Source: Actinopolymorpha singaporensis (GTDB lineage Bacteria; Actinomycetota; Actinomycetes; Propionibacteriales; Actinopolymorphaceae). Taken from it: a stretch of 64,000 nt of DNA. Each line of letters starts with the position of its first letter. Within the stretch, counting starts at the first letter, position 1. A program made the translations under genes and the position numbers. Positions 26,805-42,505 of this stretch are shown piece after piece. The notes below the pieces were generated by a model, which saw nothing but the letters and a program-made list of their open reading frames with translations, ran no database searches and had not been told where the DNA came from. The stretch lies in NCBI RefSeq assembly GCF_900104745.1, contig NZ_LT629732.1:5567981-5631980 (forward strand), read 5' to 3'.

Positions 26805-27452
26805 GTGAACGTGCTGATCGACAACCTGCCGAAGATCCTCTCCGGCTTCTGGCTCACGGTCCAGTTGCTCGTCGTCTCCGGGGTCGTCGCGACGCTGCTC
26901 GGCACCATCCTGGCGGCCATGCGGGTCTCCCCGGTGCCGGTCCTGCAGCGAGCGGGCACGGCGTACGTCACGGTCTTCCGCAACACCCCGCTGCTCATCG
27001 TCTTCCTGATCGTCGTGACCGGGCTGCCGGCGGTCGGGCTGCAGTACAGCTTCTTCGTCCGGGCGATCATCGCACTCTCCCTCTACACCGCGGCGTTCGT
27101 GTGCGAAGCGCTGCGCTCGGGCATCAACGCCATCCAGGCCGGCCAGGCGGAGGCGGCCCGGGCCATCGGCATGACGTTCGGGCAGAGTCTGCGGCTGATC
27201 GTGCTGCCGCAGGCGTTCCGCGCCGTCGTACCACCGCTGGCGAGCATCCTCATCGCCCTCACCAAGAACACCGCCATCGCCGAGGTGTTCGGCGTGACCG
27301 AGGCGAGCTACCAGCTCGACTCGCTGGTACGCGACTTCCCGACCGCCCTGTGGTGGCTGTTCGCCGGTATCGCGATCGGCTACATGATCATCGTCTTCGT
27401 GATCGCCGGTGGCGCCTCCCTGCTCGAACGACGTTGGACGGTGACCCGATGA
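26805..27452 (+). CDS. gluC: Glutamate ABC transporter, permease GluC
   Basis: Inner-membrane permease of the His/Glu/Gln/Arg type. 215 residues from a GTG at 26805, about ten bases after AAGGGAGA; a second GTG two codons later is possible. Five hydrophobic helices, with the EAA coupling loop EAARAIGMTFGQSLRLIVLPQAFR near residues 110-135. The stop overlaps gluD as ATGA. Confidence 0.94.
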   Translation: MNVLIDNLPKILSGFWLTVQLLVVSGVVATLLGTILAAMRVSPVPVLQRAGTAYVTVFRNTPLLIVFLIVVTGLPAVGLQYSFFVRAIIALSLYTAAFVCEALRSGINAIQAGQAEAARAIGMTFGQSLRLIVLPQAFRAVVPPLASILIALTKNTAIAEVFGVTEASYQLDSLVRDFPTALWWLFAGIAIGYMIIVFVIAGGASLLERRWTVTR

Positions 27453-28342
27453 GTACAGTCCTCTTCGACGTACCCGGCCCGGTCGCCCGGCGCCGGCACC
27501 GCATCGGCGGAGTGATCGGCGCGCTCGTCCTGCTGGCCCTGCTCGGGTTCGTGCTGTGGAAGCTGTGGGCCGCCGACCAGATCACCCCGAAGGCCTTCGA
27601 GCCGTTCGCCGACCCCGACATCCTGCGCGGGCTGGGCGAGGCGATCGTCACCACGCTGACCGCGGCCGCCGTCGCCATCGTGCTGGCCCTGGTGTTCGGA
27701 GCGGTGTTCGCCGCCGGCCGGCTGTCCGACCACGCGATCCTGCGCTGGCCGTCGATCGCGGTGATCGAGTTCTTCCGTGCCATCCCGCTGGTGCTGCTGA
27801 TCCTGGCCGTCTTCCTCGGCTTCGGCGACGTGACGGGCCGCTTCTGGGCCCTGGTGCTGGCCCTGATGCTCTACAACGGGTCGGTGCTGGCGGAGGTGTT
27901 CCGCGCCGGCATCAAGGCGGTGCCGCGCGGCCAGTCGGAGGCGGCGTACGCGCTCGGTCTGCGCAAGAGCAGCGTGATGTTGCTGATCCTCGTTCCGCAG
28001 GCCGTCACCACGATGCTCCCGGCCATCATCAGCCAGTGCGTGGTGGCGCTGAAGGACACCGCGCTGGGCTACATCATCAGCTCCCAGGAACTGGCGTCGT
28101 TCACCAAGCAGGTCATCTCCGGCTACAACAACCCGATCGCGGCCGGAGCCATCGCGGCCGCGGTCTACATCGTCATCAACTACACGCTGTCCCGGATCGC
28201 GCAGTGGCTGGAGGCTCGGCAACGCCGCAGGGGCCGGGCCGTCGTCCCGTTGGCCAGCACCCCGGCCGGCGACCCCAGCGGCGGTGTCTCGACTGGTGTG
28301 TCCGGCGGTACGCCCGGGGGCGGCTCCGGCCCGGCTCGCTGA
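27449..28342 (+). CDS. gluD: Glutamate ABC transporter, permease GluD
   Basis: Second permease subunit, forming a heterodimer with GluC. 297 residues from an ATG at 27449 that overlaps the gluC stop, indicating coupled translation. There is an N-terminal helix at about 22-42, then the permease core with the EAA loop SEAAYALGLRKSSVMLLILVPQAV. The last 35 residues are a Gly/Ser/Pro tail after QRRRGRAVVP. It converges on the ribonuclease Y gene with 82 bases between and no clear hairpin. Confidence 0.94.
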   Translation: MSTVLFDVPGPVARRRHRIGGVIGALVLLALLGFVLWKLWAADQITPKAFEPFADPDILRGLGEAIVTTLTAAAVAIVLALVFGAVFAAGRLSDHAILRWPSIAVIEFFRAIPLVLLILAVFLGFGDVTGRFWALVLALMLYNGSVLAEVFRAGIKAVPRGQSEAAYALGLRKSSVMLLILVPQAVTTMLPAIISQCVVALKDTALGYIISSQELASFTKQVISGYNNPIAAGAIAAAVYIVINYTLSRIAQWLEARQRRRGRAVVPLASTPAGDPSGGVSTGVSGGTPGGGSGPAR

Positions 28343-28424
28343 GCCCGCGGTCGGCCCGGCCCCGCCCCCGCGCTGTCCACCGTGCGCCGGGGGTCGGCGT
28401 CCGGTCACCGGTCGCCGGTCGTGA

Positions 28425-29918
28425 TCACAGAGCGGTCTCGGTGGCGCGGGTCTCCCGGATCACGGTGACCCGGATCTGCCCGGGGTAGGTCAGCTCGGCC
28501 TCCACCCGCTTCGCGATGTCGCGGGCGAGCACCTGCGCCTGGAGGTCGTCGACCTCGGCCGGGACCACCATGACGCGGACGTCCCGCCCGGACCGCATCG
28601 CGTGCACGGTGTCCACGCCGGGGTACGACCGAGCGATCTCCTCCAGTCGCTCCAGTCGCTGGACGTACGCCGCGAGCGACTCCCGGCGGGCGCCGGGCCG
28701 GCCGCCGGAGATGGCGTCCGCCGCCTGGGTCAGCACCGCCTCGACCGTGCGTGGCTCCACCTCGTCGTGATGCGCCTCGATCGCGTGCACCACCTCCGCG
28801 CTCTCGCCGTGCGACCGGGCGAGTTCGGCGCCCACCAGGGCGTGACTGCCCTCGGCCTGGTGGGTGAGCGCCTTGCCGATGTCGTGCAGCAACCCGCACC
28901 GCTTGGGCAGTGCCGGGTCCAGCCCGAGCTCGGCGGCCAGCAGGGCCGCGATGGACGCCGACTCGACCAGGTGCCGTAGCACGTTCTGGCCGTACGACGT
29001 GCGGAACCGCAACGTGCCGAGCAGCCGGACCAGTTCGGGGTGCAGGTCGGTCAGCCCGGTCTCCGCGACCGCCTCCTCTCCCGCCCGCAGGCAGGTCTGC
29101 TCGACCTCGCCGAGGCTCCGGGCGTACAGCTCCTCGATCCGGCGCGGATGGATCCGTCCGTCGAGCACCAGGTGCTCCAGGGTCATCCGACCGACCTCGC
29201 GCCGGACGGGATCGAAGCAGGACAACATGACCGACTCCGGGGTCTCGTCCACGATCACGTTGACGCCGGTGATCTGCTCGAAGGCGCGGATGTTGCGCCC
29301 GTCCCGGCCGATGATGCGGCCCTTCAGCTCGTCACTGGGCAGTTGCAGCGTGGTCACCACCGAGTCGGTGGTCTGTTCGGTCGCCAGGCGCTGTACGACC
29401 GTGGTGATGATGGCCCGGGCTCGCCGGTCCCCCTCCGCGCGTGCCTGGCGTTCCAGCTCGCGGACCGTCAGTGCCGCCTCGCGCTTGGCCTCGTTCTCAA
29501 TGGAGCTCACGAGCTGGGCCCTGGCCTGGTCGGCGGTCAGCCGGGCGGCGCGCTCAAGGACCAGCCTGCGCTCGGTCTCCAGGTCGGCGAGTGCGGCCTG
29601 GCGAGCGGTCAGCGCCTCCTGGGTGGCCGAGATCGTGCGGCTCCGGATCTCGAGTTCGCGTTCGGCCACGTCGAGCCGGGACTCGCGTTCGGCGAGGCGG
29701 CGTTCACGGCGCTCGACGTCGTCGGAGCGGGCACGCAGCTCCTCCGGCGGTGAGGTTGCGGCGGCACCACCGGCGGTGTCAGCGGCGGAGGCCGACGGGC
29801 CTCCCGGCCTGGCACGGGCGGTGGCCCACCAGGACCACGCGGGGCGAAGGAGGGCACCGAGGAGTACGAGCACGGCAAGCCCGACGAGCAGCAGGGCGAC
29901 CTGGACGAGCGACCACAT
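28425..29918 (-). CDS. rny: Ribonuclease Y
   Basis: Membrane-anchored endoribonuclease that starts mRNA decay. 497 residues from an ATG at 29918, ten bases after GGGAG. One N-terminal transmembrane helix (about 6-25), a long coiled coil (65-180) rich in Glu/Arg heptads, a KH domain with GRIIGRDGRN (200-209), and an HD domain with the metal motif LLHDIGKA (His345, Asp346) followed by HALVGAELARSHG. The C-terminal DVRVMVVPAEVDDLQAQVLARDIAKRVE element is typical. This is the usual actinobacterial position between recX and miaB. Identity is secure. Confidence 0.94.
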   Translation of the reverse strand: MWSLVQVALLLVGLAVLVLLGALLRPAWSWWATARARPGGPSASAADTAGGAAATSPPEELRARSDDVERRERRLAERESRLDVAERELEIRSRTISATQEALTARQAALADLETERRLVLERAARLTADQARAQLVSSIENEAKREAALTVRELERQARAEGDRRARAIITTVVQRLATEQTTDSVVTTLQLPSDELKGRIIGRDGRNIRAFEQITGVNVIVDETPESVMLSCFDPVRREVGRMTLEHLVLDGRIHPRRIEELYARSLGEVEQTCLRAGEEAVAETGLTDLHPELVRLLGTLRFRTSYGQNVLRHLVESASIAALLAAELGLDPALPKRCGLLHDIGKALTHQAEGSHALVGAELARSHGESAEVVHAIEAHHDEVEPRTVEAVLTQAADAISGGRPGARRESLAAYVQRLERLEEIARSYPGVDTVHAMRSGRDVRVMVVPAEVDDLQAQVLARDIAKRVEAELTYPGQIRVTVIRETRATETAL

Positions 29919-30402
29919 CAGCGCAGCACTCCCTTCCCCGACCGCCACCTCGGCGAACCCGCCGGTGGAGGTCTGGCCCGGGACGAGATCGGTCGGCGCG
30001 CATGAGCCGGTGGGCGGGCGGCGACCTTGCCGCGCCCGGCGCCCGGGTGTCACGTCGTCTCGCGTACCAGCCTCACCTGGCGCAAGATCCGGTGACGCAG
30101 AGTTGTCACTGGTCCGACTCTTCGAGCCGTTCGACGGCGATGGTGGCGGCGGTCTCGAGGAAGTTGCAGGTGAGGCTCGGTCCGGGGGACGCGAGTGGCG
30201 ACGACGGCGACTGACGCAGAGTGATCTCTTCCTGTTCTGGAGGCTAAGTCGCCGTACGGGGCCGGTCAAGGACGGTGGACAAGGGCGGCCGTCCGCCCGG
30301 GCCGGTCGAGCCGGGGCTCCGCCCGACCGAACGCCCGACCGAACGGCTGGCCGCCCGCCGGACCGTCCGCCTGACCGTGCGCCTGACCGGTACGGCTCGG
30401 CC
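29919..30402. other. Intergenic region between Eis-like gene and rny
   Basis: 484 bases upstream of rny and downstream of the Eis-like gene. It contains an 11-base direct repeat (TGACGCAGAGT at 30093 and 30212), which may mark promoter elements, and a low-complexity stretch of GACCG-type repeats at 30290-30400. I see no gene or strong hairpin. Confidence 0.5.
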
Positions 30403-31599
30403 TCAGAAGAAGTCGCGGGACCAGGGCAGGCGGCCGGCGAACACGCGGTCCAGTGCGGCCAGGTCGGCGGCGTCCGCGCCGGTGACCAGCCCGAGCCGGG
30501 CCAGCCGGTGCGGCGACGCCCAGCCGGTGTAGAGCGAGGCCAGCCGGCCGATACCGAGGCGTACGTCCCCTCGTCCGCCCGGCTCCAGGTGGCCGGCGCC
30601 GTCCTTGACCCGCAACACGTGCGGGCCGGTGTTCCATCTGGCCACCGGGTCGTCGAGGTGAAGATGGACCTCGGCGGTGACGTCCGGGGCGTACCCCCGA
30701 GCGGCGATCGCACCGGCCGCGTCCACCAACCGGGTCATCCAGCACCAGCCCCGGTCGGCCGGGCGCAGGTCGCGTTCGCCGACCAGCATCGGCAGCGCGG
30801 ACTGCGGCGGCGTCACCAGCGTCACCGTGCCGGCCACGGGGTACTGCGCGGCGAGAACGCGCAGCAGGGCAAGCTCACTGGCCAGGTCGACGGCCAGCAA
30901 CTGGAGCACGGTGATGGTGTAGAAGCCGCGGTCGTCGGCGGGGTCCGTCCGGCTGGCGACCAGCAGGCCGGTGAGGCGACCATTGGCCTCGGCGACGTAC
31001 CCCTCCTGGATCCCGGGATGGCCGAGCAGCCGGCGGGCGCCGAACTCGGGACCGTGGGACAGGTTGCCCGGCTCCTCCCGCGACACCGCTTCGTGCAACT
31101 CGCGGATGGCGGGCAGGTCCGCCTCCGTGGTGGGCCGCACGTCGACCTGACCGTCCGGCCTGGGCAGAGGGGTGAGTGCACGCAGGTCCAGCCGCTGCTC
31201 GGGATAGCTGCCGGCGACCTCCCAGCCGTTGCGGCGGTAGAGGGTGTGGTTCATCGGATAGAGCGAAGACACCACTTCGCCCCGGTCGCGCATTGCCCGG
31301 ATTGCCTCGTGGACGAGGGTGCTCGCGACTCCCCTGCCGCGCGCGTCGGGGGCCACGGCAACGCCGGAGACACCGCCCATCGGCACCCGACGTCCCCCGA
31401 ACCACTGGCCGAGCTCCCACACCGCCAGCCGCCCCACGATCCGCTCGCCCTCGGTAGCCAGCAGCCGGCGGTCGAGCGGGTTCGCGCCCCGGTCGTTCGC
31501 GTCGTCGTAGGGAGCCGGACGGGCCGCGAACGCCAGTTGGCTGAGATCGTGGAGTGCCTGCCGGTCGTCGTCGCGGGCGGTCCGCACCTGAAGCGCCAT
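30403..31599 (-). CDS. Eis-like GNAT N-acetyltransferase
   Basis: Acetyl-CoA dependent acetyltransferase of the Eis (enhanced intracellular survival) type; such enzymes acetylate amines, including aminoglycosides and lysine side chains. 398 residues from an ATG at 31599; no clear Shine-Dalgarno. The first GNAT domain has MGGVSGVAVAPDARGRGVASTLVHEAIRAM, the acetyl-CoA loop, then LYPMNHTLYRRNGWEVAG. A second GNAT-like domain (about 150-290) and a C-terminal SCP2-like domain ending PLWSRDFF-type sequence complete the three-domain Eis architecture. It is alone between recX and rny. The substrate cannot be inferred from context. Confidence 0.88.
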   Translation of the reverse strand: MALQVRTARDDDRQALHDLSQLAFAARPAPYDDANDRGANPLDRRLLATEGERIVGRLAVWELGQWFGGRRVPMGGVSGVAVAPDARGRGVASTLVHEAIRAMRDRGEVVSSLYPMNHTLYRRNGWEVAGSYPEQRLDLRALTPLPRPDGQVDVRPTTEADLPAIRELHEAVSREEPGNLSHGPEFGARRLLGHPGIQEGYVAEANGRLTGLLVASRTDPADDRGFYTITVLQLLAVDLASELALLRVLAAQYPVAGTVTLVTPPQSALPMLVGERDLRPADRGWCWMTRLVDAAGAIAARGYAPDVTAEVHLHLDDPVARWNTGPHVLRVKDGAGHLEPGGRGDVRLGIGRLASLYTGWASPHRLARLGLVTGADAADLAALDRVFAGRLPWSRDFF

Positions 31600-31677
31600 G
31601 GCTGGCACGCTAGCGCCGACCTCGCGGCGGCGGTGACCCGGGCGGACCACCGGCCGGTTCAGGCCGTGGGCCCGGAT

Positions 31678-32292
31678 CTACGGACCGGCGGTTTCCATCG
31701 AGTCGGCGGCACCGCTGAACTCTGCGACAGCGGCGCGGTGCTCCTCGTCGGACTCCCCCTCCAGCGCCTCCCGGACGACTCGCGCGGCGAGCCCCGGCGA
31801 GTAGCCTTTGCGGGCCAGCATCGCGGCCAGCCGACGGACCCTGGTGCGCCCGTCGAGTCCCCGGGTCGCGGCGAGCTTGCGGTCCACCAGGGCACGGGCG
31901 GTTTCCAGCTCGGTCTCCGGCGACAGCTGGTCGAGCGCCTCGCCGACCTCGGAGTCACCGACCCCCCGGCGGCGCAGCTCGTGGGCCAGGGCCCGTCGTG
32001 CCAGCCCGCGCCCGGTGTGGCGGGACTCGACCCACGCCCGGGCGAAAGCCGCGTCGTCGATCAGGCCAACGTCGGTGAACCGCCCGAGGACGGACTCGAT
32101 GATGTCCTCGGGCACCTCCTTGCGGCGCAGCGCCTGTTCCAGCTCCGCCCGCGAGCGGGGCTGGCCGGTGAGCTGGCGCAGAACGATGGTGCGGGCTGAC
32201 TGCTCGGGATCGGTCGCGGCCTGTTCCTGATCGTCGTCCGACCGCGACCTCGATGATCTCGACCTAGAGGATCTCGATGACTTCTGCCTCAC
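31678..32292 (-). CDS. recX: Regulatory protein RecX
   Basis: Inhibits or tunes RecA filament growth. 204 residues from a GTG at 32292. Residues 1-20 are an Arg/Ser repeat (SSRSSRSRSSRSRS) encoded by short DNA repeats and are not part of the fold. The three-helix RecX modules follow: RTIVLRQLTGQPRSRAELEQALRRKEVP, then FTDVGLIDDAAFARAWVESR and RRALAHELRRRGVGDSEV. It lies 21 bases after recA and is surely co-transcribed with it, as in other actinobacteria. Confidence 0.93.
   Translation of the reverse strand: MRQKSSRSSRSRSSRSRSDDDQEQAATDPEQSARTIVLRQLTGQPRSRAELEQALRRKEVPEDIIESVLGRFTDVGLIDDAAFARAWVESRHTGRGLARRALAHELRRRGVGDSEVGEALDQLSPETELETARALVDRKLAATRGLDGRTRVRRLAAMLARKGYSPGLAARVVREALEGESDEEHRAAVAEFSGAADSMETAGP
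32242..32282. repeat. Short in-frame repeat at the recX 5' end
   Basis: Alternating GACCTCGATGATCT-type and GACCTAGAGGATCT-type motifs. On the minus strand they encode the Ser/Arg repeat at the RecX N-terminus. Exact copies are few, so the boundary is approximate. Confidence 0.6.
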
Positions 32293-32313
32293 CTGTTCGT
32301 CTGCTCCTCGGCG

Positions 32314-33366
32314 CTAGAAGTCCTCGGGCTCGGGCTCGGACTCGTCCGCGGGCTGGTCCACTTGCGGGCCGATACCGACCTTCTCCTTGATCTTCTTCTC
32401 CAGCTCCTCGGCGAGGTCAGGGTTGTCCCGAAGGAACTTCCGCGCGTTTTCCTTGCCCTGGCCGAGCTGGTCGCCGTCGTAGGTGTACCAGGCGCCGGCC
32501 TTGCGGACGATGCCGTGCTCCACCCCGAGGTCGATCAGGCTGCCCTCGCGGCTGACTCCTTCGCCGAACAGCATGTCGAACTCGGCCTGCCGGAAAGGCG
32601 GGGCCATCTTGTTCTTCACGACCTTCACCCGGACCCGGCTGCCCACGGGGTCCTGGCCGTCCTTCAGCGTCTCGATCCGCCGCACGTCGAGGCGAACGGA
32701 CGCGTAGAACTTCAGCGCCTTGCCGCCGGTCGTGGTCTCCGGCGACCCGAACATCACACCGACCTTCTCGCGAAGCTGGTTGATGAAGATGGCGGTGGTC
32801 TTGGAGGAACTGATCACACCGGTCAACTTGCGCAACGCCTGGCTCATCAGCCGGGCCTGCAGACCGACGTGGCTGTCGCCCATCTCGCCCTCGATCTCGG
32901 CCCGTGGCACCAGGGCCGCCACCGAGTCGATCACGACGACGTCGAGGGCACCGGAACGGATCAGCATGTCGGCGATCTCCAGCGCCTGCTCACCGTTGTC
33001 CGGCTGGGACACCAGCAAGGCGTCGGTGTCGACGCCGAGCTTCTTTGCGTATTCAGGGTCGAGGGCGTGCTCGGCGTCGATGAATCCGGCGACACCGCCT
33101 GCCTTCTGCGCGTTGGCCAACGCGTGCAGTGCGAGGGTGGTCTTACCCGAACTCTCCGGCCCGTAGATCTCCACGACCCGCCCACGGGGCAGGCCGCCGA
33201 TCCCGAGCGCCACGTCGAGGGCGATCGCTCCGGTCGGGATCACCTCGATCGGAGCGCGACCCTCCTGGCCCAGGCGCATCACTGCGCCCTTGCCGAACTG
33301 CCGCTCGATCTGCGCTATCGCGGTGTCCAGCGACTTGTCGCGGTCCTGAGCTCCCATGCTCGCCAT
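32314..33366 (-). CDS. recA: Recombinase RecA
   Basis: ATP-dependent strand-exchange protein and SOS co-protease. 350 residues if the ATG at 33366 ([27 protein letters not shown]) is the start; the frame is open to 33462, and ATGs at 33429 and 33462 would add 21 or 32 basic residues. No candidate has a strong Shine-Dalgarno. Walker A GPESSGKT is at 69-76, with RecA signatures [33 protein letters not shown], and loop 2 region [20 protein letters not shown]. No intein. The C-terminal 25 residues are acidic ([15 protein letters not shown]). An SOS box overlaps the promoter (33573-33586). Confidence 0.97.
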
Positions 33367-33555
33367 CCCGGTCAGGTCGGGGGCTCGCCGTGAGCCCCGG
33401 GACTTCTTCTGCGTGGTCTTCTCGTTCATCACACCCGAGACGTTAGAGGTGACCACCGACATACCTGAATCCGGGCGGTGGAACCTGTGGACGCCACGGC
33501 CGTGAGCCGCATTGTGGACAAAACCCGCCGGCGGCGAGTGTGGCCCGTCAATGAC

Positions 33556-33586
33556 ACTCTACGACGATATGGCGAACACGCGTTCG
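33556..33586 (-). promoter_or_regulatory. SOS (LexA) box and -10 element of recA
   Basis: CGAACACGCGTTCG at 33573-33586 fits the actinobacterial LexA box pattern CGAAC-N4-GTTCG. On the minus strand a TAGAGT hexamer at 33561-33556 follows 11 bases further, a good -10 element. The start codon of recA is about 190 bases downstream. LexA binding here would block polymerase. Confidence 0.85.
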
Positions 33587-33651
33587 AAGAGGTACGCCAC
33601 GCCGAGTCGAGCCGTTCGGACCGGGAACGTCGGGCATGGGGCCGGCGACGT

Positions 33652-33846
33652 TCAGCGCTCCGACGGAGGAAGCTCCAGGGCCCGCCACACCGCGCGCCAG
33701 ACGGTCTTCGCGTCGACGCCGGAGTCCAGCGCCTGCTGGGGAGTGCGGCCACCCAGCTCCGCAAGGACCTGGTCGCGTGCCCACGACCGGGCGTAGCCCG
33801 AGCCGAGGTGGTGTTCCATCCGTTGCCAGAATTCCGTCAGTCGCAC
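33652..33846 (-). CDS. DUF3046 family protein
   Basis: 64-residue actinobacterial protein of unknown role, habitually encoded just upstream of recA. The product starts at a GTG at 33846 (VRLTEFWQRMEHHLGSGYARSWARDQVL) and continues with AELGGRTPQQALDSG and DAKTVWRAVWRALELP, all characteristic of the family. The frame stays open upstream into an unrelated fragment (33988-34149), but the family length and its usual MRLTEFW-type start argue for 33846. No good Shine-Dalgarno, so leaderless translation is possible. Confidence 0.88.
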   Translation of the reverse strand: MRLTEFWQRMEHHLGSGYARSWARDQVLAELGGRTPQQALDSGVDAKTVWRAVWRALELPPSER

Positions 33847-33987
33847 CGGGCCAGTATGACCGTCGCCCGGCCCCGGACCGGCGGCGGTCGCGAGCCCAGC
33901 CGGCGTACTCACGGGTGACCGCGACGGCGAACGGGCCCGGCCGCCGCTTCGCGACCGGGCCCCGCACCGCATGGCGTGCCGACGAGC

Positions 33988-34149
33988 GTCAGCCGCGTCG
34001 GTGTCGCCGGCCTGCTCCGCACGCCGCGCACAGGTCGGGTACATGACGGTCGCCTCGTGCAGCTCACCCTTCATCGACTTCTCCAGGTTGGCCGCGTTGT
34101 CGCGCACCAGCCCGTACAACTCGGCCGCCTCGGCGAAGTGCTCCCCCAG
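33988..34149 (-). pseudogene. Truncated rubrerythrin-like fragment
   Basis: A 54-codon stretch on the minus strand reads like the middle of a rubrerythrin/ferritin-like protein: LGEHFAEAAELYGLVRDN, then NLEKSMKGELHEATVMYP and ARRAEQAGDTDAAD. The GE-hhEhTVMYP pattern with metal-type Glu and His is typical. The first half of the family (first EXXH helices) is missing on the glycosyltransferase side, and the similarity stops at DTDAAD, before the last metal-binding helix; the frame then runs through non-family sequence into DUF3046. No convincing start codon. It is best seen as a gene remnant at the border of the glycopolymer locus. Confidence 0.6.
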
Positions 34150-34167
34150 CTCGACGGAAGTCGGGGG

Positions 34168-36201
34168 TCAGCTCGGACGGGACCAGCGAGCCACTTGCCG
34201 AACCACCTTCTTCAGCAGCTCCGCCTGCTCGTCGGGCAGTCTCCCCAGCAGGCGGTACGTCTGGTGGCGCAGCCGCTGGTCCCCGGCGAGCCGGCTCAGC
34301 AGCCGGCGCGGCAGGGCGCGGTAACCGATACCCCGCACTGCCACGATCCGCCCCTCGCGGACGACCGCCACGCCGATCGGGACGGCCGACCGCAGACCGG
34401 AGGAGTCGGTGCGCAGGGCGATCGGGTGCCGTCCGGCCGGCAGAACGGGCACGTCCTCCAACGCCAGCACCGCCGCCCCCGCCGGCTCGATCCGGCCCGG
34501 GAGCGTGCGCGTCCTGCCGGCGCGGCCGACCACCAGCTCGACCTCGTGGGAGCCCGCGTCCGGGCCGGTGCGTACCGGCAGCGAAAGCTGCAGGCGCGAC
34601 CCGCCGAGCTGCAACGGCCTCACCCCCAGCGAGGCGACCGCGCCGGCGAGAGCCTGGTCGCGGTCACCCACCTCGACGGTCAGCCGCCCGGTGGGGAGCA
34701 TCCGCCTGGGTACGACGATCCGGGCAGGGTTCCCGACCACCGCGGGCACCAGCGCCTGCTCCCAGTGAGGGCTGCCGTCCAGAGTGATCCGCAGCGAGCG
34801 ACCGAGGCCGAGGATCTGGACCGACACCGACAGCTCGCAACGGCCGGCGGGAAGCGGCCCACCGCCGGCCAGCCGGTCCGGATCGAAGGAGAACTCGCCC
34901 GAGGCGACCACCTGGTAGCGCGCCTGCGGGCCGTCGTGCGCGACGCGCTCCAGCGAGCCCTTCAGGAGCTCGGGCGCGAACCACCACGTGTTGGTGTCGC
35001 GGTGGTGGACGCGCAGGTCGCCGTGCACGTGCCGGCACGGATCACCGACGTCCCACCCGTCGGGCACGGTGGGCAGGCCGGCGGTGAGCTCGTCGTCGAG
35101 GTAGTACCTCCCCGCGCGTTCGGTGACCACGACCGGGCGCCCGTCGGAGTGGACGAGGACTACGCGCACCCCGATCCGGAACGCACCGTCGCGCCAGCCC
35201 ACCTCCTCGACCGAGAGTTCGGCGTGCACCTTCTCACACCGAGTGGCGAGCTCCCGCAGGCCGTCCAGCCGGTCGCGCAGGAGCAGTACCGCGCGCAGCC
35301 GCACTACCGGCGCCAGGTCGGAGACCACCCCGTCGTCCTCCCGGAAGCGTTCCAGCGCGAGCTTGCGAACCTCCTTGTAGCCCGCGTTGCGGTAGCCCTC
35401 GGAGTAGCGGTTCAGCTTCGGCTCGCGCAGCCGGCCCAACATCTCCGCCCGGAGGAAGCGCCGGAGCAGCCGGTCGCGCAAGTCTCCGGGCTCGGTGCCC
35501 TCCACGACGGCATCCATCACCTGCCGGAGGTTCTGGTAGTAGGCCCTGAGGTTGAGGGCGTTGCCGCTGTTGTTGCCCCCGTCGTCGCGCCGGGTCCAGT
35601 AGTAGCAGACGTAGTCGCCGACGATGGAGACCGACTTCGCGCGGGTGTACGCGCGAGCCATGAACAGCTGGTCCTCCAGGCGGACCTTCCCCTCCGGGAA
35701 CCTGATTCCGTTGTCCAGCAGGAACGAGCGGCGGAACATCTTGTGGGGCGTGGCGCTGTCGATCAGCGGCGCGTCCGCGACGGTGCACGATGCCACCGTC
35801 CGCGCGAAGACGCTGCTGGGACCGGCCATCGTGCCGCCCACCTTGCCGAGGACGATGTCGGCGTCGTTGCTGGATCCCAGGGCGTACATGCGTTCCAGGG
35901 CCTCCGGCGCGAGCTCGTCGTCCTGGTCGACGAACTGGACGTACTCACCGCGCGCGAGGTCGACGCCGACGTTGCGCGGCTTGCCGGGCCAGCCGGAGTT
36001 CTCCTGGTGGTGCACCCGCACGTGCGGGTTCGCGGCGGCGAGTGCGTCGAGCCACCCGGGCGAGTCGTCGGTGGAGCCGTCGTCCACGAACACGATCTCG
36101 TACTCGTCGGGTGGGAGGCTTTGGCCCAACAGTGACTCCGCGCACTGCTGGAGGTACTTTCCGGGGTTGTAGACGGGCACGACGACACTGGCCTTGATCA
36201 T
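34168..36201 (-). CDS. GT2 glycosyltransferase with C-terminal beta domains (copy A)
   Basis: Inverting GT-A glycosyltransferase, cytoplasmic, of the kind that decorates or primes wall polymers. 677 residues from an ATG at 36201 with GGGGGAGTCA directly upstream. The GT2 domain (1-230) has SVVVPVYNPGKYLQQC, FVDDGSTDDSPG, HQENSGWPGKPRN and VDQDDELAPEALE (metal-binding DQD), and LEDQLFMARAYTRAK (catalytic-base region). A helical linker (240-330) and two beta-rich segments (345-677) follow, as in teichoic-acid GlcNAc transferases of the TarS type. It closely resembles the protein at 42506 (shared PLIDS-TPHKMFR and FPEG-RLED motifs). It is the last gene of the minus-strand arm, beside the remnant at 33988. 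Confidence 0.88.
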   Translation of the reverse strand: MIKASVVVPVYNPGKYLQQCAESLLGQSLPPDEYEIVFVDDGSTDDSPGWLDALAAANPHVRVHHQENSGWPGKPRNVGVDLARGEYVQFVDQDDELAPEALERMYALGSSNDADIVLGKVGGTMAGPSSVFARTVASCTVADAPLIDSATPHKMFRRSFLLDNGIRFPEGKVRLEDQLFMARAYTRAKSVSIVGDYVCYYWTRRDDGGNNSGNALNLRAYYQNLRQVMDAVVEGTEPGDLRDRLLRRFLRAEMLGRLREPKLNRYSEGYRNAGYKEVRKLALERFREDDGVVSDLAPVVRLRAVLLLRDRLDGLRELATRCEKVHAELSVEEVGWRDGAFRIGVRVVLVHSDGRPVVVTERAGRYYLDDELTAGLPTVPDGWDVGDPCRHVHGDLRVHHRDTNTWWFAPELLKGSLERVAHDGPQARYQVVASGEFSFDPDRLAGGGPLPAGRCELSVSVQILGLGRSLRITLDGSPHWEQALVPAVVGNPARIVVPRRMLPTGRLTVEVGDRDQALAGAVASLGVRPLQLGGSRLQLSLPVRTGPDAGSHEVELVVGRAGRTRTLPGRIEPAGAAVLALEDVPVLPAGRHPIALRTDSSGLRSAVPIGVAVVREGRIVAVRGIGYRALPRRLLSRLAGDQRLRHQTYRLLGRLPDEQAELLKKVVRQVARWSRPS

Positions 36202-36476
36202 TGACTCCCCCGTGCAGATTTGTCCCCGTGGCTGCTGCAGCGCGCACGTGTCGATGAGGTTCCCGGTTGCTCATCTGGACAAACGGCGTGGAACTGCGAC
36301 GGGTTGCACGCGGAGTTGATCTTTCTTTGACGGCCCCGTGCACAGCAGGACCACGAGCCGGTACGGACAGGACCTGCTACCCGGTCGGACCGACCGGCTG
36401 CGCGGGCCCAGGGGCCGTCCCGGGCCACCTGGGCTACTACCCGGGCTATCGGGCTACTACCGGGCTATCCGGAGTA
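36202..36476. other. Spacer between copy A GT2 and TagF-like genes
   Basis: 275 bases. The distal part is the 20-bp repeat array that overlaps the TagF-like stop. The rest shows no gene and no clear terminator, although the GT2 gene may use its own promoter here. Confidence 0.45.
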
Positions 36477-36490
36477 CTACCCGGGCTGGC
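36431..36490. repeat. Three-unit 20-bp repeat over a stop codon
   Basis: Units GGGCTACTACCCGGGCTATC (36431-36450), a near copy at 36451-36470 and a more diverged copy at 36471-36490. The last contains the TAG stop of the TagF-like gene at 36477-36479, so the repeat has grown outward from the 3' end of that gene. Confidence 0.85.
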
Positions 36491-38477
36491 TCTCCCCCAT
36501 CGCCTCCGGCGCCGGGCTGGGCTCCACGAACGCGGTGACCTGTTCCAGCTGCGGCCCGGCGCCGTGCTGGCCGTCCCACTCCAGGTCGGCCGCGGCCATC
36601 AGCGCGTCCGCAGCGGCGTTCCAGCGTTGCTGCGCGGGCGGCTCGTCGGGCCCGAGAAGGTAGGCGCGCGCCTGCACGCGGGCGTCCGCCTTCGGGTCGC
36701 TGCGCACGATCGTGTCCACGAGCTCGGCGATGTCCGCACCGGGGTTCAACAGGTAGGAGGAGTACGCGCTCGGGAACGCCGCGCGGAAGTCGTCGTCGGA
36801 CAGTCCCTTGGGGTTGGCGACCACGCAGGGCTTGCCGGTGGCCAGGTAGTCCGACACGACGCTGGAGATGTCGGCGACCAGGACGTCGGCCTGGTTGTAC
36901 GCGTCGAACAGGTTCGGCAGCGACCCCTCGACCAGGACGTGCCGCGTGCCCTGCGCGGCCCAGAACACCTCGTGCCACCGCGCCTGCAGGCCCTCGGCCT
37001 CCGCGACGGTCACGTCCTCGTCGGCCAGCCTTGCCTCCAGCTGGGCCAACTCGGCGGCAGCCTGCTGCGGCACCGGCGGCATCTCCCGGATCGCGGCCGT
37101 GATCGCCGCCTGGATCTGCCGGTCGGCCTCCGCCGCACGCCGGTCTCGGGTGCCGGTCAGCGGGTGCGGCTTGTAGATGATGCGGACGGGCAGCGGCGAG
37201 GCCAGCAGCCGGGTCACGAGATCCAGTCCCATCACCGTCAGGGACGTCTGGAAGTCGTCGTCTGTCCAACCCTCCCAGGTGGGAAGGTAGAGAACGGTCA
37301 ACGGACGCTCTGGGGTGATCGGCGGCAGCAGGCCCGTCCGGCGTTCGATCACGTCCAGCTGGGGCCGTCCGACCTCGACGATCTCGTCGTCGCGGACGCC
37401 CACCTGGGCGCGGGCGTAGCGTTCCCGTCCGGCCGGGCCGGCCACCCAGATCTCGTCGTAGACCTTGCTGAACGGGTTGAAGCTCGCCACCTTGTCGCTG
37501 TCGCCGTGGCCGATGAAGACGTGCTTGACCCGTGGCTCGCGCAGCAGGTGGATGTTGTTGCCGACATTGGAGACGAACAACGCGATCCGGGCGTCGGCCA
37601 ACGTGAAGTTCATCAGGTCGACCTGGTTCGGGATGCACACGATCGGCAGCGTGGTGCGCCCGAGATTGCGGATCGCGTGCCGCTGCCGTACGAGCACCAC
37701 ACCCTGGTGCGGCATGCGTTCGACCGTCCGCAGCCACATCTCGGCCTGGTAGAGCGAGGTGGCCGAGCCGCTGAAGTACAGCACGACCTCGGGGTGGTAC
37801 TGATCACGCAGCGCGGCGCTCACCCCGTCCAGGAGCGCCTGGCGTCCGGGCCTCGCGCCGAGCGCGAACAACTGCCGCAGCAGCAGCAGGCTCCCCGCAC
37901 CGACGACCAGGACGTAGAGGACCATCATCATCCCGAACGGCCGGAAGTCGTTGAGACGTACGCTGACCGCGCCCGCGAGCACCGGCAGGAGTCCCAGGGC
38001 GAGCAGCCGGGGCGTGAGGTTGTCCACGAGGATCCCCGGCGTGGAAGCCGGCCGCAGCTCCGGTGGCAGGTCGACGTTGCGCACCTCCACCGGCGGCTGG
38101 GTGCGCCGGCGCACCAGGGTGAGCAGGCCGAGGTAGCCGATCCGGCCGACCGGAACCAGCATCGCCACCAGGCTGACCACCAGGAGTTCCGAGCGGCTCA
38201 TGTCGCGGTTGGCGTCGGTGATCGCGATCAGGAGCAGCAGCAGGAAGATCTGCACGAACGCGCGGTGGGAAATGCCGAACTGTGCCCGGCGCAGCAGGTA
38301 CACCACGGGGCGGAACCTGCGTTCGACCACGATGTCCATCGCCGCGGCGACCAGCAGGAAGAACCCGAAGATCAGCGGGGTGGCCAGGACCGCGGTCACG
38401 ACCAGCGCGGCGTAGCTCGCGACGAGTGCGAAGAGGACGCCGATCAGCGGTCCTCGGCGGACGAGCGTCTGCAGCAC
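36477..38477 (-). CDS. Membrane-anchored TagF-like polyol-phosphate transferase (copy A)
   Basis: 666 residues from a GTG at 38477 with GGGAGAA upstream. The first 235 residues contain about six hydrophobic helices. The remainder is a CDP-glycerol/CDP-ribitol transferase domain of the TagB/TagF family: VLYFSGSATSLYQAEMWL, HVFIGHGDSDKVASFNPF (the HG and K of the family HGTxxK motif), DEIWVAGPAGRERY, EVGRPQLD, VLYLPTWEG, IIYKPHPLTGTRD, and DVLVADISSVVSDYLATGKPCVV. It should add polyol-phosphate units to a lipid-linked teichoic acid at the membrane. The fused helices replace the amphipathic membrane contact of classical TagF. Paralogue of the protein at 38606, 128 bases upstream. Confidence 0.87.
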   Translation of the reverse strand: MLQTLVRRGPLIGVLFALVASYAALVVTAVLATPLIFGFFLLVAAAMDIVVERRFRPVVYLLRRAQFGISHRAFVQIFLLLLLIAITDANRDMSRSELLVVSLVAMLVPVGRIGYLGLLTLVRRRTQPPVEVRNVDLPPELRPASTPGILVDNLTPRLLALGLLPVLAGAVSVRLNDFRPFGMMMVLYVLVVGAGSLLLLRQLFALGARPGRQALLDGVSAALRDQYHPEVVLYFSGSATSLYQAEMWLRTVERMPHQGVVLVRQRHAIRNLGRTTLPIVCIPNQVDLMNFTLADARIALFVSNVGNNIHLLREPRVKHVFIGHGDSDKVASFNPFSKVYDEIWVAGPAGRERYARAQVGVRDDEIVEVGRPQLDVIERRTGLLPPITPERPLTVLYLPTWEGWTDDDFQTSLTVMGLDLVTRLLASPLPVRIIYKPHPLTGTRDRRAAEADRQIQAAITAAIREMPPVPQQAAAELAQLEARLADEDVTVAEAEGLQARWHEVFWAAQGTRHVLVEGSLPNLFDAYNQADVLVADISSVVSDYLATGKPCVVANPKGLSDDDFRAAFPSAYSSYLLNPGADIAELVDTIVRSDPKADARVQARAYLLGPDEPPAQQRWNAAADALMAAADLEWDGQHGAGPQLEQVTAFVEPSPAPEAMGESQPG

Positions 38478-38605
38478 GGGTGGTTCTCCCAGGTGGTCGT
38501 GGACGGCGGCTGGTCAGCGGGCGGCCGGCCGCCCTGTGCCCTGTCGGCAGGTGGCAGATCGGCCGGTGGCAGGTGCGCCGGTGGTGGGCCGGCAGGGGAC
38601 GGTGG

Positions 38606-40507
38606 TCAGGACCCGGCCACCGCCTTCCGCATGCGTTCAAGTGCCGGGGGCTCGGGCGGGCCGAGGAGCTCCGCGCGCAGCTTCGCCCGCTCGGTCGCGG
38701 CCGGATCGACCTGCCCGCGCCCGGCCGCCAGCAACCGGTCCAGGCCCGCGCCGTCGGCACCGAGCAGGTAGCCGCCGCGGCAGGAAGGGTACCGAAAAGT
38801 GAACTCCTCGTCGGGGAGACCGGCCGGGTTGGTGACGGCGTACGGCCGCTCGCCGGCCAGGAAGTCGGTGATCACGCTGGACACGTCGCACACCAGGACG
38901 TCGGCCGCGGCGAAGCAGGCATACAGGTTGAAGTCCGGTCCGGGGACAACGAGGTGGACCGGGGGGCCCGGCCGATCGGCGAGCTGGGCACCGGCCCAGG
39001 CCGCCTGGGCGGTGACCTCCTCCACCCGCGACGTGCCTGCCGGCGCCGTCACGACGTCCAGGTCGTCGCGCGGCACGGCCAGCCGCGCCGGGGACGCGGG
39101 CCGCCGCACCCTGCGGTCGCCCAGCAGCGTGACGATCTCGCGGTGCGCCCGGGCGACCGCCGGGTCACGGGTGCCGGCCAGCGGGTGCGGGCGGTACAGC
39201 ACCCGGACGTCCGGCTCGGCCAGCAGGCGTTCGAGGAGTTCCCGGCCGCCGGCACCGAGCGAGGTCTGGTTCGGCTCGTCGCCGTACCCCTCCCAGGTCG
39301 GGGCGTACAGCACGGTCAGCCTGCCGGGCACCCGATCCGCCCCGCCCACGTCGCCGCGGCCGGCCACCTCGTCGAGCTGAGGCCGGCCGATCTCGACCAC
39401 CCGGGCGGGGTCGACGCCGATCCCGGCTGCCGCGAACCGCTCCCGCGCGGCCGGGCCGGAGACCCACACCTCGTCGTACGCCTTGAGGAAGGGGTTGGTG
39501 GTGACCGGTTTGTCGCTGTCACCGTGCCCGATGAACACGTGCCGGACACCGCGACGGCGGAGCAGGTGCAGGTTGCTCACCGCGTGTGAGACGTACAACG
39601 CCACCCGCAGGTGCGGCAGCGGAAGCTCCATCAACACGGTGCCGTGCTCGACGCACAGCACCGGCAGGGTGGTCGGGCCGAGGTGGCGGAAGGTCTCCCG
39701 GTCGCGCAGGATCAGCAGGACCGACACTTCGAGGCGTTCGAGTGTCTCGACCCACATCTCCAGCTGGTAGAGCGTGTCCGGTCCGGAACCGAAGTGCACC
39801 GCGACCTCGGGCGCGGCCTTCGCCACCCCCTTGTCGACCGCCGCGCGCAGCCTCGCCCGGCTGAGCCGGCGCATCGCGGCCGCGGCGTACGCGAGCGCGG
39901 CGACTCCGGCCAGCACCAGCACCGCGGCGACCACCGCACCCGCCACCAAGGGGCCCTCCGAGCCGGCGAGGACGGCCAGCGCCGCACCGGCCGACAGCGC
40001 GACGTCCGGGCAGCCGAGCGTGGTGTCGGCGTGCCGGCCCAGCACGGGCGGCAGTGCCCGGGGCACCCGGAGTCTTCCCAGGTCGAGCCCACGGCTGAGC
40101 ACCGGCATCCTGCGAGCCCGGTGCACCAGCTCGGCGAGCCCGGCGCCGGCGGCTCGCAGCGCGGCCAGGGCCAGCAACCCGGCCACGGCGACCAGGAACC
40201 AGCTCCGCGGCGCTTCGGAACGGACGAGGAACGCCAGGACGGCCACCGCGCGCAGCAGGCCGCGCCACTGGGCACCCAGGCCGATCCGGCCCAGGGCCCA
40301 GCCGACGAACGGCGCCCGCAGCGTGCCGGCAACCTCCAGGGCGGCCACCGCCAGCGCGGTCACCAGCAGGCCGGCCGCGGTGGGGACCAGGGCGGTGACC
40401 AGCAGGCCGGCGTACGCGAGGACCAGACAACCGGCCAGGCCGAGCGCCCGGCGCCCGGTGTCCGGCGCGGGTGCCCGCTCGGTGACCTGCACCAGACGTG
40501 TGGTCAT
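38606..40507 (-). CDS. Membrane-anchored TagF-like polyol-phosphate transferase (copy B)
   Basis: 633 residues from an ATG at 40507 that overlaps the stop of the cytidylyltransferase gene (ATGA). Same plan as the gene at 36477: about six N-terminal hydrophobic segments (25-215), then a TagF-type domain with VAVHFGSGPDTLYQLEMWVETL, HVFIGHGDSDKPVTTNPF, DEVWVSGPAARERF, EIGRPQLD, VLYAPTWEG, VLYRPHPLAGTRD and DVLVCDVSSVITDFLAGERPYAV. Direct coupling to a predicted CDP-ribitol synthase suggests CDP-ribitol is its donor (inference). The two copies may act as primer and polymerase, as TagB/TagF or TarK/TarL do. Confidence 0.87.
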   Translation of the reverse strand: MTTRLVQVTERAPAPDTGRRALGLAGCLVLAYAGLLVTALVPTAAGLLVTALAVAALEVAGTLRAPFVGWALGRIGLGAQWRGLLRAVAVLAFLVRSEAPRSWFLVAVAGLLALAALRAAGAGLAELVHRARRMPVLSRGLDLGRLRVPRALPPVLGRHADTTLGCPDVALSAGAALAVLAGSEGPLVAGAVVAAVLVLAGVAALAYAAAAMRRLSRARLRAAVDKGVAKAAPEVAVHFGSGPDTLYQLEMWVETLERLEVSVLLILRDRETFRHLGPTTLPVLCVEHGTVLMELPLPHLRVALYVSHAVSNLHLLRRRGVRHVFIGHGDSDKPVTTNPFLKAYDEVWVSGPAARERFAAAGIGVDPARVVEIGRPQLDEVAGRGDVGGADRVPGRLTVLYAPTWEGYGDEPNQTSLGAGGRELLERLLAEPDVRVLYRPHPLAGTRDPAVARAHREIVTLLGDRRVRRPASPARLAVPRDDLDVVTAPAGTSRVEEVTAQAAWAGAQLADRPGPPVHLVVPGPDFNLYACFAAADVLVCDVSSVITDFLAGERPYAVTNPAGLPDEEFTFRYPSCRGGYLLGADGAGLDRLLAAGRGQVDPAATERAKLRAELLGPPEPPALERMRKAVAGS

Positions 40508-42144
40508 CCGCGGCGCCGGTCGTTCCCGTCGCCCGTGCGGGTGCTGCCCCCGCCGTCCACCCGGTCCACGTCCTCCACCGGGTCCACGTCGTCCACCTCG
40601 TCGGCGTCGTCGGCGGCGTGTTCCTCCACGTGCTCGAGCGCGGTCGAGATGTCCCGGGCGTGGTCGTGGTCGCCGGGCGGTGTGGTGACCGGCGCCGGAG
40701 CGGGGTCGCGCCGGACGTCGACGACGTTGCCCGTCTGTTCGGACAACAGGACGTCGAGGGAGGCCAGGCCGACGTCACGCGCGGGCAGCAAGGTGCCCGG
40801 CGGCTCCTCCCCGAACGCGCGGGTGCGCATCGGCGTCTGGGTGCGTTCGGGGTTGACGCAGTTGACCTGGATCCCGTCGGCGGCCCACTCGTCGGCCAGC
40901 GCCTGGGTGAGGTTGACCACCGCCGCCTTGGTCGAGGAGTACAGGCTGTAGCCCGCCCGGCCACGGGTGTAGGAGCTGGACGTGAACAGCAGCAGGTGGC
41001 CGCGGCTCTCGGCGAGGTAGCGGTGCGCCGCCCGCGCGACGTAGACGGGGCCCAGGAGGTTGACCTGCAGGCTCTGGGCGATGAGGTCGTCCGGAGCATC
41101 GGCCAGCGGCACGGTGTGCAGCACACCTGCCGTCACCGCGACGTAGTCGATCCGGCCGGACTCCTCGTACGCCTGTGCCAGCGCGGCACGCACGTGCTCG
41201 GGATCCTCCACGTGGGTGCCCGTCGCGGACCTGCTGAAGCTGAACACCCTGGCGCCGAACTCGCGCGCGGCGTCCCCGATCTCGGCTCCGATGCCGTAGC
41301 TGCCGCCGAAGACGACCAGCGTCTTGCCCGCGAGGAGCTCGCCGACCTGCTCGGTCGGCACCGGGGTGGGCGGGGTGTGCGAGCCGAGCCGGAAGAGCTG
41401 GTCGGCGAGGAACACGTCGATCGGATAGGTGACCTTCATGTTGCGCTCGGAGCCCTCGACCACCGTGATGGGCACCTCGGGGAGGTAACGCAGCACGACC
41501 GCGCAGTCGTCGGTGGCGGCGAAGTTCGGGTCGTCCGCGGCAACCTCGTAGGCGCGGCGGATCGTGGACAGCCGGAACGCCTGCGGGGTCTGCCCGCGCC
41601 GCAGCCGTGCCCGGCTGGGGATGTCGGTGATGAGCCCGTCGTCGACGACCACGATCGTGTCCGCGGACGGGATCGCCACGTCGACCGCCGAGAAGGTGTC
41701 CAGCGCCTTCACGCAGTCGGCGATGATGCGGTGGTCCAGCAGCGGGCGTACGGCGTCGTGGAACAACACCTTGGCCTCGTCCGGCCCGACCGCCTCCAGC
41801 GCCCGGCGGGTGGTGTCGTTGCGGGTCTCCCCGCCCTCCAGGACGCGGGTGACCTTGCGGAAGCCGGCGTTCTTGATGATCTTCTCGGCGTCCTCGGTCC
41901 AGCCCGGAGCCATCAGTACGACGATCTCGTCGATGTCCGGCGAGGTCTCGAACACCTCGACGGTGTGCTCGAGGAGCGGCTTGCCGGCCACCTTGAGTAG
42001 CTGCTTGGGGAGGCGAAGGCCCACCCGGGTTCCCTGGCCACCGGCCAGCACCACTCCCACCGCGCGCAGGGGCTCACCTGTCGTCGGTTCGCCTGTCGCC
42101 GTCACCGCTGGCGTGGGCGTGGTCTCGGGCCTCGTGTCGGCCAC
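40504..42144 (-). CDS. Bifunctional ribitol-5-P cytidylyltransferase / SDR reductase
   Basis: Fused enzyme resembling Haemophilus Bcs1: the SDR half would reduce ribulose-5-P to ribitol-5-P and the IspD/TarI half would make CDP-ribitol. 546 residues from a GTG at 42144; GAGGGGA lies about 12 bases upstream. The cytidylyltransferase (28-255) has GVVLAGGQGTRVGLRLPKQLL, EGGETRNDTTRRAL, LFHDAVRPLL and ADTIVVVDDG. The SDR (275-490) has TLVVFGGSYGIGAEIG and the catalytic YSLYSSTKAAVV. The C-terminal 45 residues are Asp/Glu-rich from GTCCACGTC-type DNA repeats. It could instead be an IspD-type isoprenoid enzyme, but the fusion and TagF-like neighbours favour teichoic acid. Confidence 0.87.
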   Translation of the reverse strand: MADTRPETTPTPAVTATGEPTTGEPLRAVGVVLAGGQGTRVGLRLPKQLLKVAGKPLLEHTVEVFETSPDIDEIVVLMAPGWTEDAEKIIKNAGFRKVTRVLEGGETRNDTTRRALEAVGPDEAKVLFHDAVRPLLDHRIIADCVKALDTFSAVDVAIPSADTIVVVDDGLITDIPSRARLRRGQTPQAFRLSTIRRAYEVAADDPNFAATDDCAVVLRYLPEVPITVVEGSERNMKVTYPIDVFLADQLFRLGSHTPPTPVPTEQVGELLAGKTLVVFGGSYGIGAEIGDAAREFGARVFSFSRSATGTHVEDPEHVRAALAQAYEESGRIDYVAVTAGVLHTVPLADAPDDLIAQSLQVNLLGPVYVARAAHRYLAESRGHLLLFTSSSYTRGRAGYSLYSSTKAAVVNLTQALADEWAADGIQVNCVNPERTQTPMRTRAFGEEPPGTLLPARDVGLASLDVLLSEQTGNVVDVRRDPAPAPVTTPPGDHDHARDISTALEHVEEHAADDADEVDDVDPVEDVDRVDGGGSTRTGDGNDRRRG

Positions 42145-42505
42145 GGTCGGGTCACATCCCCTCTGGTCGTCACTTTTCGTACCCGTCGACGCACGCGGTG
42201 CGTCCTTGTGTCCGGATCTGCCAGAGCCCGGCGGGGTCTCCACCCACTTCCGGCGACCGGGAACCGTCGGGCGCGGCTCCCAGGTCCGGTAGGTACGGTG
42301 CCAGGGATGGTAGTTGGCCGGTGCGCCAGGTGTCCGGTCGGCTGCCGTCTGCTGGACATCGGGTGGATGTCCAGCAAGCCGGCGCCGACTCCCCCGGCGC
42401 GGCCGGACGTCTGGCCGAACGCACTCCGCTACCCTCGCATTTCGGACCGACAGGCAAACGATCGACGCATTCGAGGCCCCGTGGGAGGGGCAGAGGACGG
42501 GGCTG
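42145..42505. other. Divergent intergenic region of the glycopolymer locus
   Basis: 361 bases between the cytidylyltransferase/SDR gene and the copy B GT2 gene. It carries the perfect inverted repeat at 42351-42375. No other gene-like structure is seen; frames crossing it are not conserved. Confidence 0.55.
42351..42375. promoter_or_regulatory. Perfect inverted repeat between divergent wall-polymer genes
   Basis: GCTGGACATC and GATGTCCAGC are exact complements around GGGTG. The site is 131 bases from the GT2 start and 207 from the SDR-fusion start, fitting a shared operator, though a hairpin in the GT2 leader is possible. Confidence 0.6.

Follow-up and report, generated by a model that had tools for sequence, protein, structure and literature searches.

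A very probable pseudogene relic of a tandem rubrerythrin-like gene beside recA in Actinopolymorpha singaporensis

Taken together, our analyses argue for a model in which the short stretch between a wall-polymer glycosyltransferase gene and DUF3046-recA in Actinopolymorpha singaporensis is, with very high probability, a pseudogene, the relic of a tandem rubrerythrin-like gene and not a working unit. It lies at 34152-33988 of the window, by which we mean the whole 64,000-nucleotide stretch analysed (NZ_LT629732.1, positions 5,567,981 to 5,631,980), and its identity is decided by an intact gene in the same place in a congener, G004. Four congeners, the window's own genome (G000), G001, G003 and G004, show an unusually clear series of states; in itself the pseudogene is an ordinary one, in a slot that was rearranged repeatedly. 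The features of the locus are these:

32314-33462, minus strand: recA, an open reading frame named in the earlier note and by eye; the G004 gene at the corresponding position is 98% identical
33652-33846, minus strand: DUF3046 gene (PF11248, E = 1.1e-28)
33933-33962, minus strand: G+C-rich hairpin in the 3' flank, terminator-like and without a T run, aligned with sequence behind the intact G004 gene
33987-33988, minus strand: 3' breakpoint, where codon 284 is joined to sequence just past the intact gene's stop, with 119 bp missing relative to G004
33988-34152, minus strand: remnant of the rubrerythrin-like gene, codons 230-284 by global alignment to the intact G004 gene (L007:9532-10497)
34153-34167, minus strand: 5' breakpoint, a spacer of 15 bases from the glycosyltransferase stop to the remnant, with about 1 kb missing relative to G004
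34168-36201, minus strand: glycosyltransferase family 2 gene with a TarS linker domain (PF00535, E = 3.1e-30; PF22181, E = 2.6e-26), the first gene of the wall-polymer locus

Profile scores alone give the fragment (34149-33988, minus strand, LGEHFAEAAELYGLVRDNAANLEKSMKGELHEATVMYPTCARRAEQAGDTDAAD) a weak rubrerythrin identity. PF02915 (Rubrerythrin) is the sole Pfam family to match it at E <= 1, but its 19.9 bits (E = 0.001) fall short of the gathering score, 22.8, and the top NCBIfam match, RuberyRbr, reaches 20.6 bits against a cut-off of 200. What is decisive is the match to the intact G004 gene, whose protein aligns with all 54 residues of the fragment at 89% amino-acid identity (E = 3.2e-26); a search of 57 genomes (the window's own and 56 relatives) at E <= 0.001 returned matches in two, G000 and G004. 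Chance similarity was considered and ruled out by shuffling and by the other frames of the window: the fragment scores 97.1 bits against the G004 protein and the best of 1000 shuffles 25.4, while among 2,900 stop-free 54-residue stretches from the six frames of the window two exceeded 24.3 bits, both overlapping the fragment. Descent from a PF02915 member is thus given by this identity together with the shared slot of the G004 gene, whose product scores 106 bits for the family, spread over three stretches. The earlier note had called this fragment a rubrerythrin remnant lacking both gene ends, and the intact gene bears this out on both counts. Its 54 codons, their coordinates and frame, the GELHEATVMYP motif and the neighbouring genes are all as it described; global alignment adds one codon, giving 55 and a limit at 34152, so that its distance of 18 bases to the glycosyltransferase stop becomes 15. 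Of the two checks that it proposed, comparison with related genomes produced the complete gene beside recA in G004, and the protein search gave PF02915 as the sole Pfam family at E <= 1, though below the family cut-off.

The intact G004 gene has 321 codons and lies between the orthologous glycosyltransferase gene and DUF3046-recA in the same order and orientation as in the window. The two halves of its protein are 50% identical over 115 residues, and its N-terminus, MRTARRLSIVAMGALLGLGLVGTAQAS, looks by eye like a signal peptide, preceded by a ribosome-binding-site-like sequence, suggesting that the parent protein consisted of two tandem rubrerythrin-like four-helix domains and was apparently exported. 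It does not reach classical rubrerythrin (NF045767, 100.3 bits, under the 200-bit equivalog cut-off), and a C-terminal rubredoxin domain was not found among its Pfam matches at E <= 1, which comprise PF02915 and a fatty-acid-desaturase match at E = 0.54. As a stand-in for the G004 protein in testing for the four-helix fold we used the Micromonospora sonchi homologue (L045, 308 residues). Its predicted model, built with seven sequences in the alignment, has four plus four helices in two bundles at a mean pLDDT of 91.9, with residues 1-23 under 50; the four-helix bundle of the erythrin/ferritin-like fold is present in this model of the homologue and is thereby predicted for the intact parent. 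Foldseek ranked rubrerythrin and sulerythrin chains at the top (best E = 1.2e-3, none <= 0.001). TM scores by target were 0.76-0.84 for one domain against the Burkholderia pseudomallei rubrerythrin and sulerythrin chains, and lower against other chains, for example 0.33-0.35 (rmsd 14-16) against 1ryt, 1b71 and symerythrin, for which the program spread its alignments over both domains. Seven aligned tandem homologues agree in the ligand-type glutamates and histidines of both domains, except for a D in place of E in domain 2 of L049; we take these positions to bind metal, presumably iron. Judged by its family, the parent would most likely have acted outside the membrane, as a diiron protein that scavenges peroxide or handles iron.

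With helix limits transferred from the M. sonchi model, what remains of this protein in the window is helix C of domain 2, with the latter half of helix B before it and the beginning of helix D after it. The four-helix bundle is incomplete, and both the helix A GE and the helix D ExxH are absent. Such a piece cannot form a diiron site, and without a start of its own and without half of the domain's ligand-type residues it cannot work as an erythrin. In our model of the window lineage, one deletion would have taken everything from the upstream flank through the signal peptide and domain 1 to helix A of domain 2 and the first half of its helix B, beginning by global alignment with G004 within 15 bases of the glycosyltransferase stop; a second would have taken the 3' end, where most of helix D lay, so that 55 codons are left together with the 3' hairpin. 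Homology, position, the missing parts and the pattern of loss are observed directly; how many deletions there were and in what order, what the parent did and why it was lost are what we infer here. The hairpin region (33920-33972) folds at -39.3 kcal/mol (z -3.41, none of 200 shuffles as good), and its G004 counterpart at -44.9 (z -1.87, 8 of 200 as good).

The same slot has been reduced to different extents in the other congeners, where the glycosyltransferase stop and the DUF3046 start lie 426 bp (G001) and 133 bp (G003) apart, against 1402 bp in G004 and 321 bp in the window. In G001 codons 1-63 survive at 84% identity, together with the flank upstream of them, and no further part of the gene was recognised. 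In the G003 slot alignment to G004 found no remnant of the rubrerythrin gene; 80 bp directly before DUF3046, 76% identical to G004, were considered as residual gene and rejected, as they correspond to flank. The stretches fetched from G002, G005, G006 and G007 gave chance-level matches only and no residual gene traces. Because the pieces in the window (codons 230-284) and in G001 (codons 1-63) do not overlap, one shared deletion cannot explain both, and most simply the gene would have been broken at least twice within the group. G003 may have lost it by a route of its own or may have passed through the state seen in the window. Trees of the four genomes with G002, G005 and G006 (and, for recA, also G007) unite the four at 100/100 in both the DNA and the protein tree of the glycosyltransferase, at 100/99 in the recA DNA tree and at only 80/81 in that of the RecA protein. 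How the four branch among themselves is left fully open by both recA trees and partly open by the DNA tree of the glycosyltransferase, whose protein tree pairs G000 with G003 (89/91). Since both remnants and the intact gene share one slot, we suggest that the common ancestor of the four congeners carried a gene for a 321-residue protein between the wall-polymer glycosyltransferase gene and DUF3046-recA.

Substitution patterns speak to this history in more than one direction. Synonymous divergence of the remnant from G004 (pS 0.183) lies in the range of its neighbours (glycosyltransferase 0.22, DUF3046 0.22, recA 0.15, recX 0.23), as expected for a gene that was probably inherited vertically. 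There are nine non-synonymous and seven synonymous changes over 54 codons, and pN (0.073) equals that of the glycosyltransferase gene (0.073); amino-acid changes are not in excess, a point against the pseudogene reading, though 54 codons are too few to demonstrate relaxed selection. At synonymous sites the piece in G001 has diverged less from G004 (pS 0.079, 4 of 50.7 sites) than the glycosyltransferase gene has (0.305, 166-167 of about 546 sites; Fisher p = 0.0003), though its value is not far from that of recA (40 of 286 synonymous sites); exchange of the rubrerythrin-like gene between lineages is therefore possible. This piece (L028:4387-4647) comes with its upstream flank and with the signal-peptide-like start, and continues as an 86-codon open frame ending just inside the DUF3046 start, which might still be expressed as a short exported peptide.

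The earlier note had also read the fragment as the scar of the insertion or deletion that set the wall-polymer genes beside recA, which we now consider unlikely. Its premise of a rearranged slot holds good: the outgroups G002, G005 and G006 have an ABC trio between the glycosyltransferase gene and DUF3046 (with thiI as well in G005 and G006), this segment is absent from the slot throughout the clade, and the rubrerythrin gene occupies its exact place. The fragment does not record the placing of the wall-polymer genes, however, as in every one of the four clade members DUF3046-recA has the orthologous glycosyltransferase gene for its neighbour, be the rubrerythrin gene whole (G004), broken or absent (G003), and the breaks of the window copy are private among the four. 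In the three outgroups the glycosyltransferase gene stands 4-7 kb from DUF3046. The order in G006, from another genus of the family, and in G005 is glycosyltransferase, ABC ATPase, two ABC-2 permeases, thiI on the opposite strand, DUF3046 and recA, with one additional glycosyltransferase at the G005 locus; in G002 the ABC trio is joined by a second ATPase-like match and thiI is absent there, while G007 has thiI-DUF3046-recA and no glycosyltransferase in the 14 kb fetched. These names agree with profile matches for the ThiI of G006 (TIGR00342, 310 bits, over the cut-off of 264.5) and the ABC components of G005 (PF00005 and PF01061). Searched across the eight genomes at E <= 1e-30, one of the permeases matched in G002, G005 and G006, with a 38% match elsewhere in G003, and in none of G000, G001, G004 and G007; the ABC ATPase and the other permease were searched for in the fetched stretches. 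A ThiI search of the same eight genomes (E <= 1e-10) gave matches in G005, G006 and G007 and none in G000-G004. The gene, for tRNA uracil 4-sulfurtransferase, is thus without a match in five of the six genomes of the genus and stands beside DUF3046-recA in G005, G006 and G007.

Taking the arrangement of the other genus as ancestral, it would be the loss of the ABC/thiI segment from the slot, and not the breaks in the window, that made the glycosyltransferase gene the direct neighbour of recA. This loss probably preceded or accompanied the gain of the rubrerythrin gene, affects the whole clade and would be older than the window breaks. The fragment consequently says nothing about when the wall-polymer genes came to lie next to recA; what the slot shows is parallel loss of one gene, after an earlier loss of an ABC transporter and, in some lineages, of thiI. 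As for the wall-polymer genes themselves, G005 groups with G006 at 100/100 in the glycosyltransferase trees (L031, L032) and recA places it in its own genus (97/93, DNA), which makes an exchange of the wall-polymer glycosyltransferase in G005/G006 possible. G003 has a second wall glycosyltransferase copy elsewhere, 80% identical to that of the window (L034, G003:C1:4236000-4246000). In the window, 40504-42522 on the minus strand encodes an IspD-type/ribitol-5-phosphate cytidylyltransferase domain fused to a short-chain dehydrogenase, which suggests a ribitol-phosphate step in the wall-polymer locus, presumably TarI-TarJ-like.

We also looked at pieces of one repeat period in other genomes, in Pedococcus cremeus (L053:5998-6483) and in a Frankiaceae MAG (L052:3587-4141). 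Each consists of helices B-C-D of domain 1 followed by helix A of domain 2 and a stop, and each frame is bounded by an exact direct repeat, of 26 bp in L053 and 20 bp in L052; the proteins are 71% identical and the DNA 80% over 483 bp. L052 has a signal-peptide-like start before its one repeat period and may perhaps be a four-helix diiron protein circularly permuted in nature, by duplication and then truncation of the ends. In L053 a start codon is absent before residue 37 of the open frame, so this piece looks like a relic and the case for circular permutation is weakened; perhaps both frames are truncated relics. It is tempting to speculate that tandem exported rubrerythrins of Actinobacteria are repeatedly cut up, a piece sometimes surviving as a new protein; the recA-side relics of the window and G001 would then be cases in which this failed. 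We give this idea, the circular permutant in L052 included, little credence. The break in G001 falls directly after a YAxQAARTG motif, near which the L052 and L053 frames begin and end.

The gene is rare and patchy. Searched with the G004 protein, the order gave matches at E <= 1e-5 in nine of 147 genomes, counting G001, G004 and the window's own, and a sample of the class gave them at E <= 1e-20 in eight of 394, the window's own again included. Among 38 loci from named genomes sorted by eye, eight are tandem (L045-L051, L081), 27 single-domain (many of them, by title, from Acidobacteria MAGs), two the one-period pieces L052 and L053, and one, L079, is cut by a contig end. An intact paralogue was not found in the window's genome, where the fragment matches only itself at E <= 1; PF02915 matches three sequences there at E <= 1, namely the fragment, a ferritin-family frame (PF00210, 110.4 bits), which alone exceeds the cut-off, and a 13-bit match. 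A plasmid database held four records matching the fragment at 53-61% identity, from which we draw no link to mobility. Such patchiness, and the low synonymous divergence of the G001 piece as a hint of exchange, would suit another history, in which the gene was never whole in the window lineage and the fragment came in as such from a related strain through recombination. We judge this highly improbable, as slot, orientation, 3' flank and hairpin are those of the intact G004 gene and the divergence of the remnant resembles that of its neighbours. It is barely credible that translation from the TTG at 34119, in one open frame, turns the fragment into a short functional protein or extends DUF3046 at its N-terminus: the frame is indeed open for 171 codons from the glycosyltransferase stop to the DUF3046 stop and amino-acid changes are not in excess, but G001, G003 and G004 have other sequence at that place, the DUF3046 family match begins at the usual start, and long frames are common in such G+C-rich DNA, with 90 open reading frames of at least 45 residues overlapping 27000-42000 and DUF3046 open frames of 102-559 codons in the seven relatives searched. 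We therefore return to the reading of a relic, advise that 34152-33988 be annotated as a pseudogene, and recommend G004 for work on the intact protein.

Placing the remnant beside its relatives sets out what was lost. The G004 gene shares with it the slot, the orientation, the 3' hairpin and 89% amino-acid identity over the retained part, and differs in having 321 codons, two complete domains and, read by eye, a ribosome-binding-site-like sequence and a signal-peptide-like start. The homologues of M. sonchi (L045) and M. endophytica (L046) resemble the G004 protein in their two domains and signal-peptide-like start and are 60-62% identical; unlike the G004 gene, L045 has by eye GTPase-like and methyltransferase-like frames as neighbours and not recA. 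Among the papers listed in literature searches on rubrerythrin and on DUF3046 with recA, no title or opening of an abstract describes a tandem exported rubrerythrin or such a locus, which falls short of showing that none is in print, and a term search of the main text of PMC5114695 did not return 'tandem', 'duplicat' or 'signal peptide'. With the rubrerythrin- and sulerythrin-type erythrins of PF02915 the parent shares the four-helix fold, as predicted, and the conserved ligand-type residues; in contrast to them it is double, signal-peptide-like at its start and without a rubredoxin domain, and the piece left in the window is less than one whole domain.
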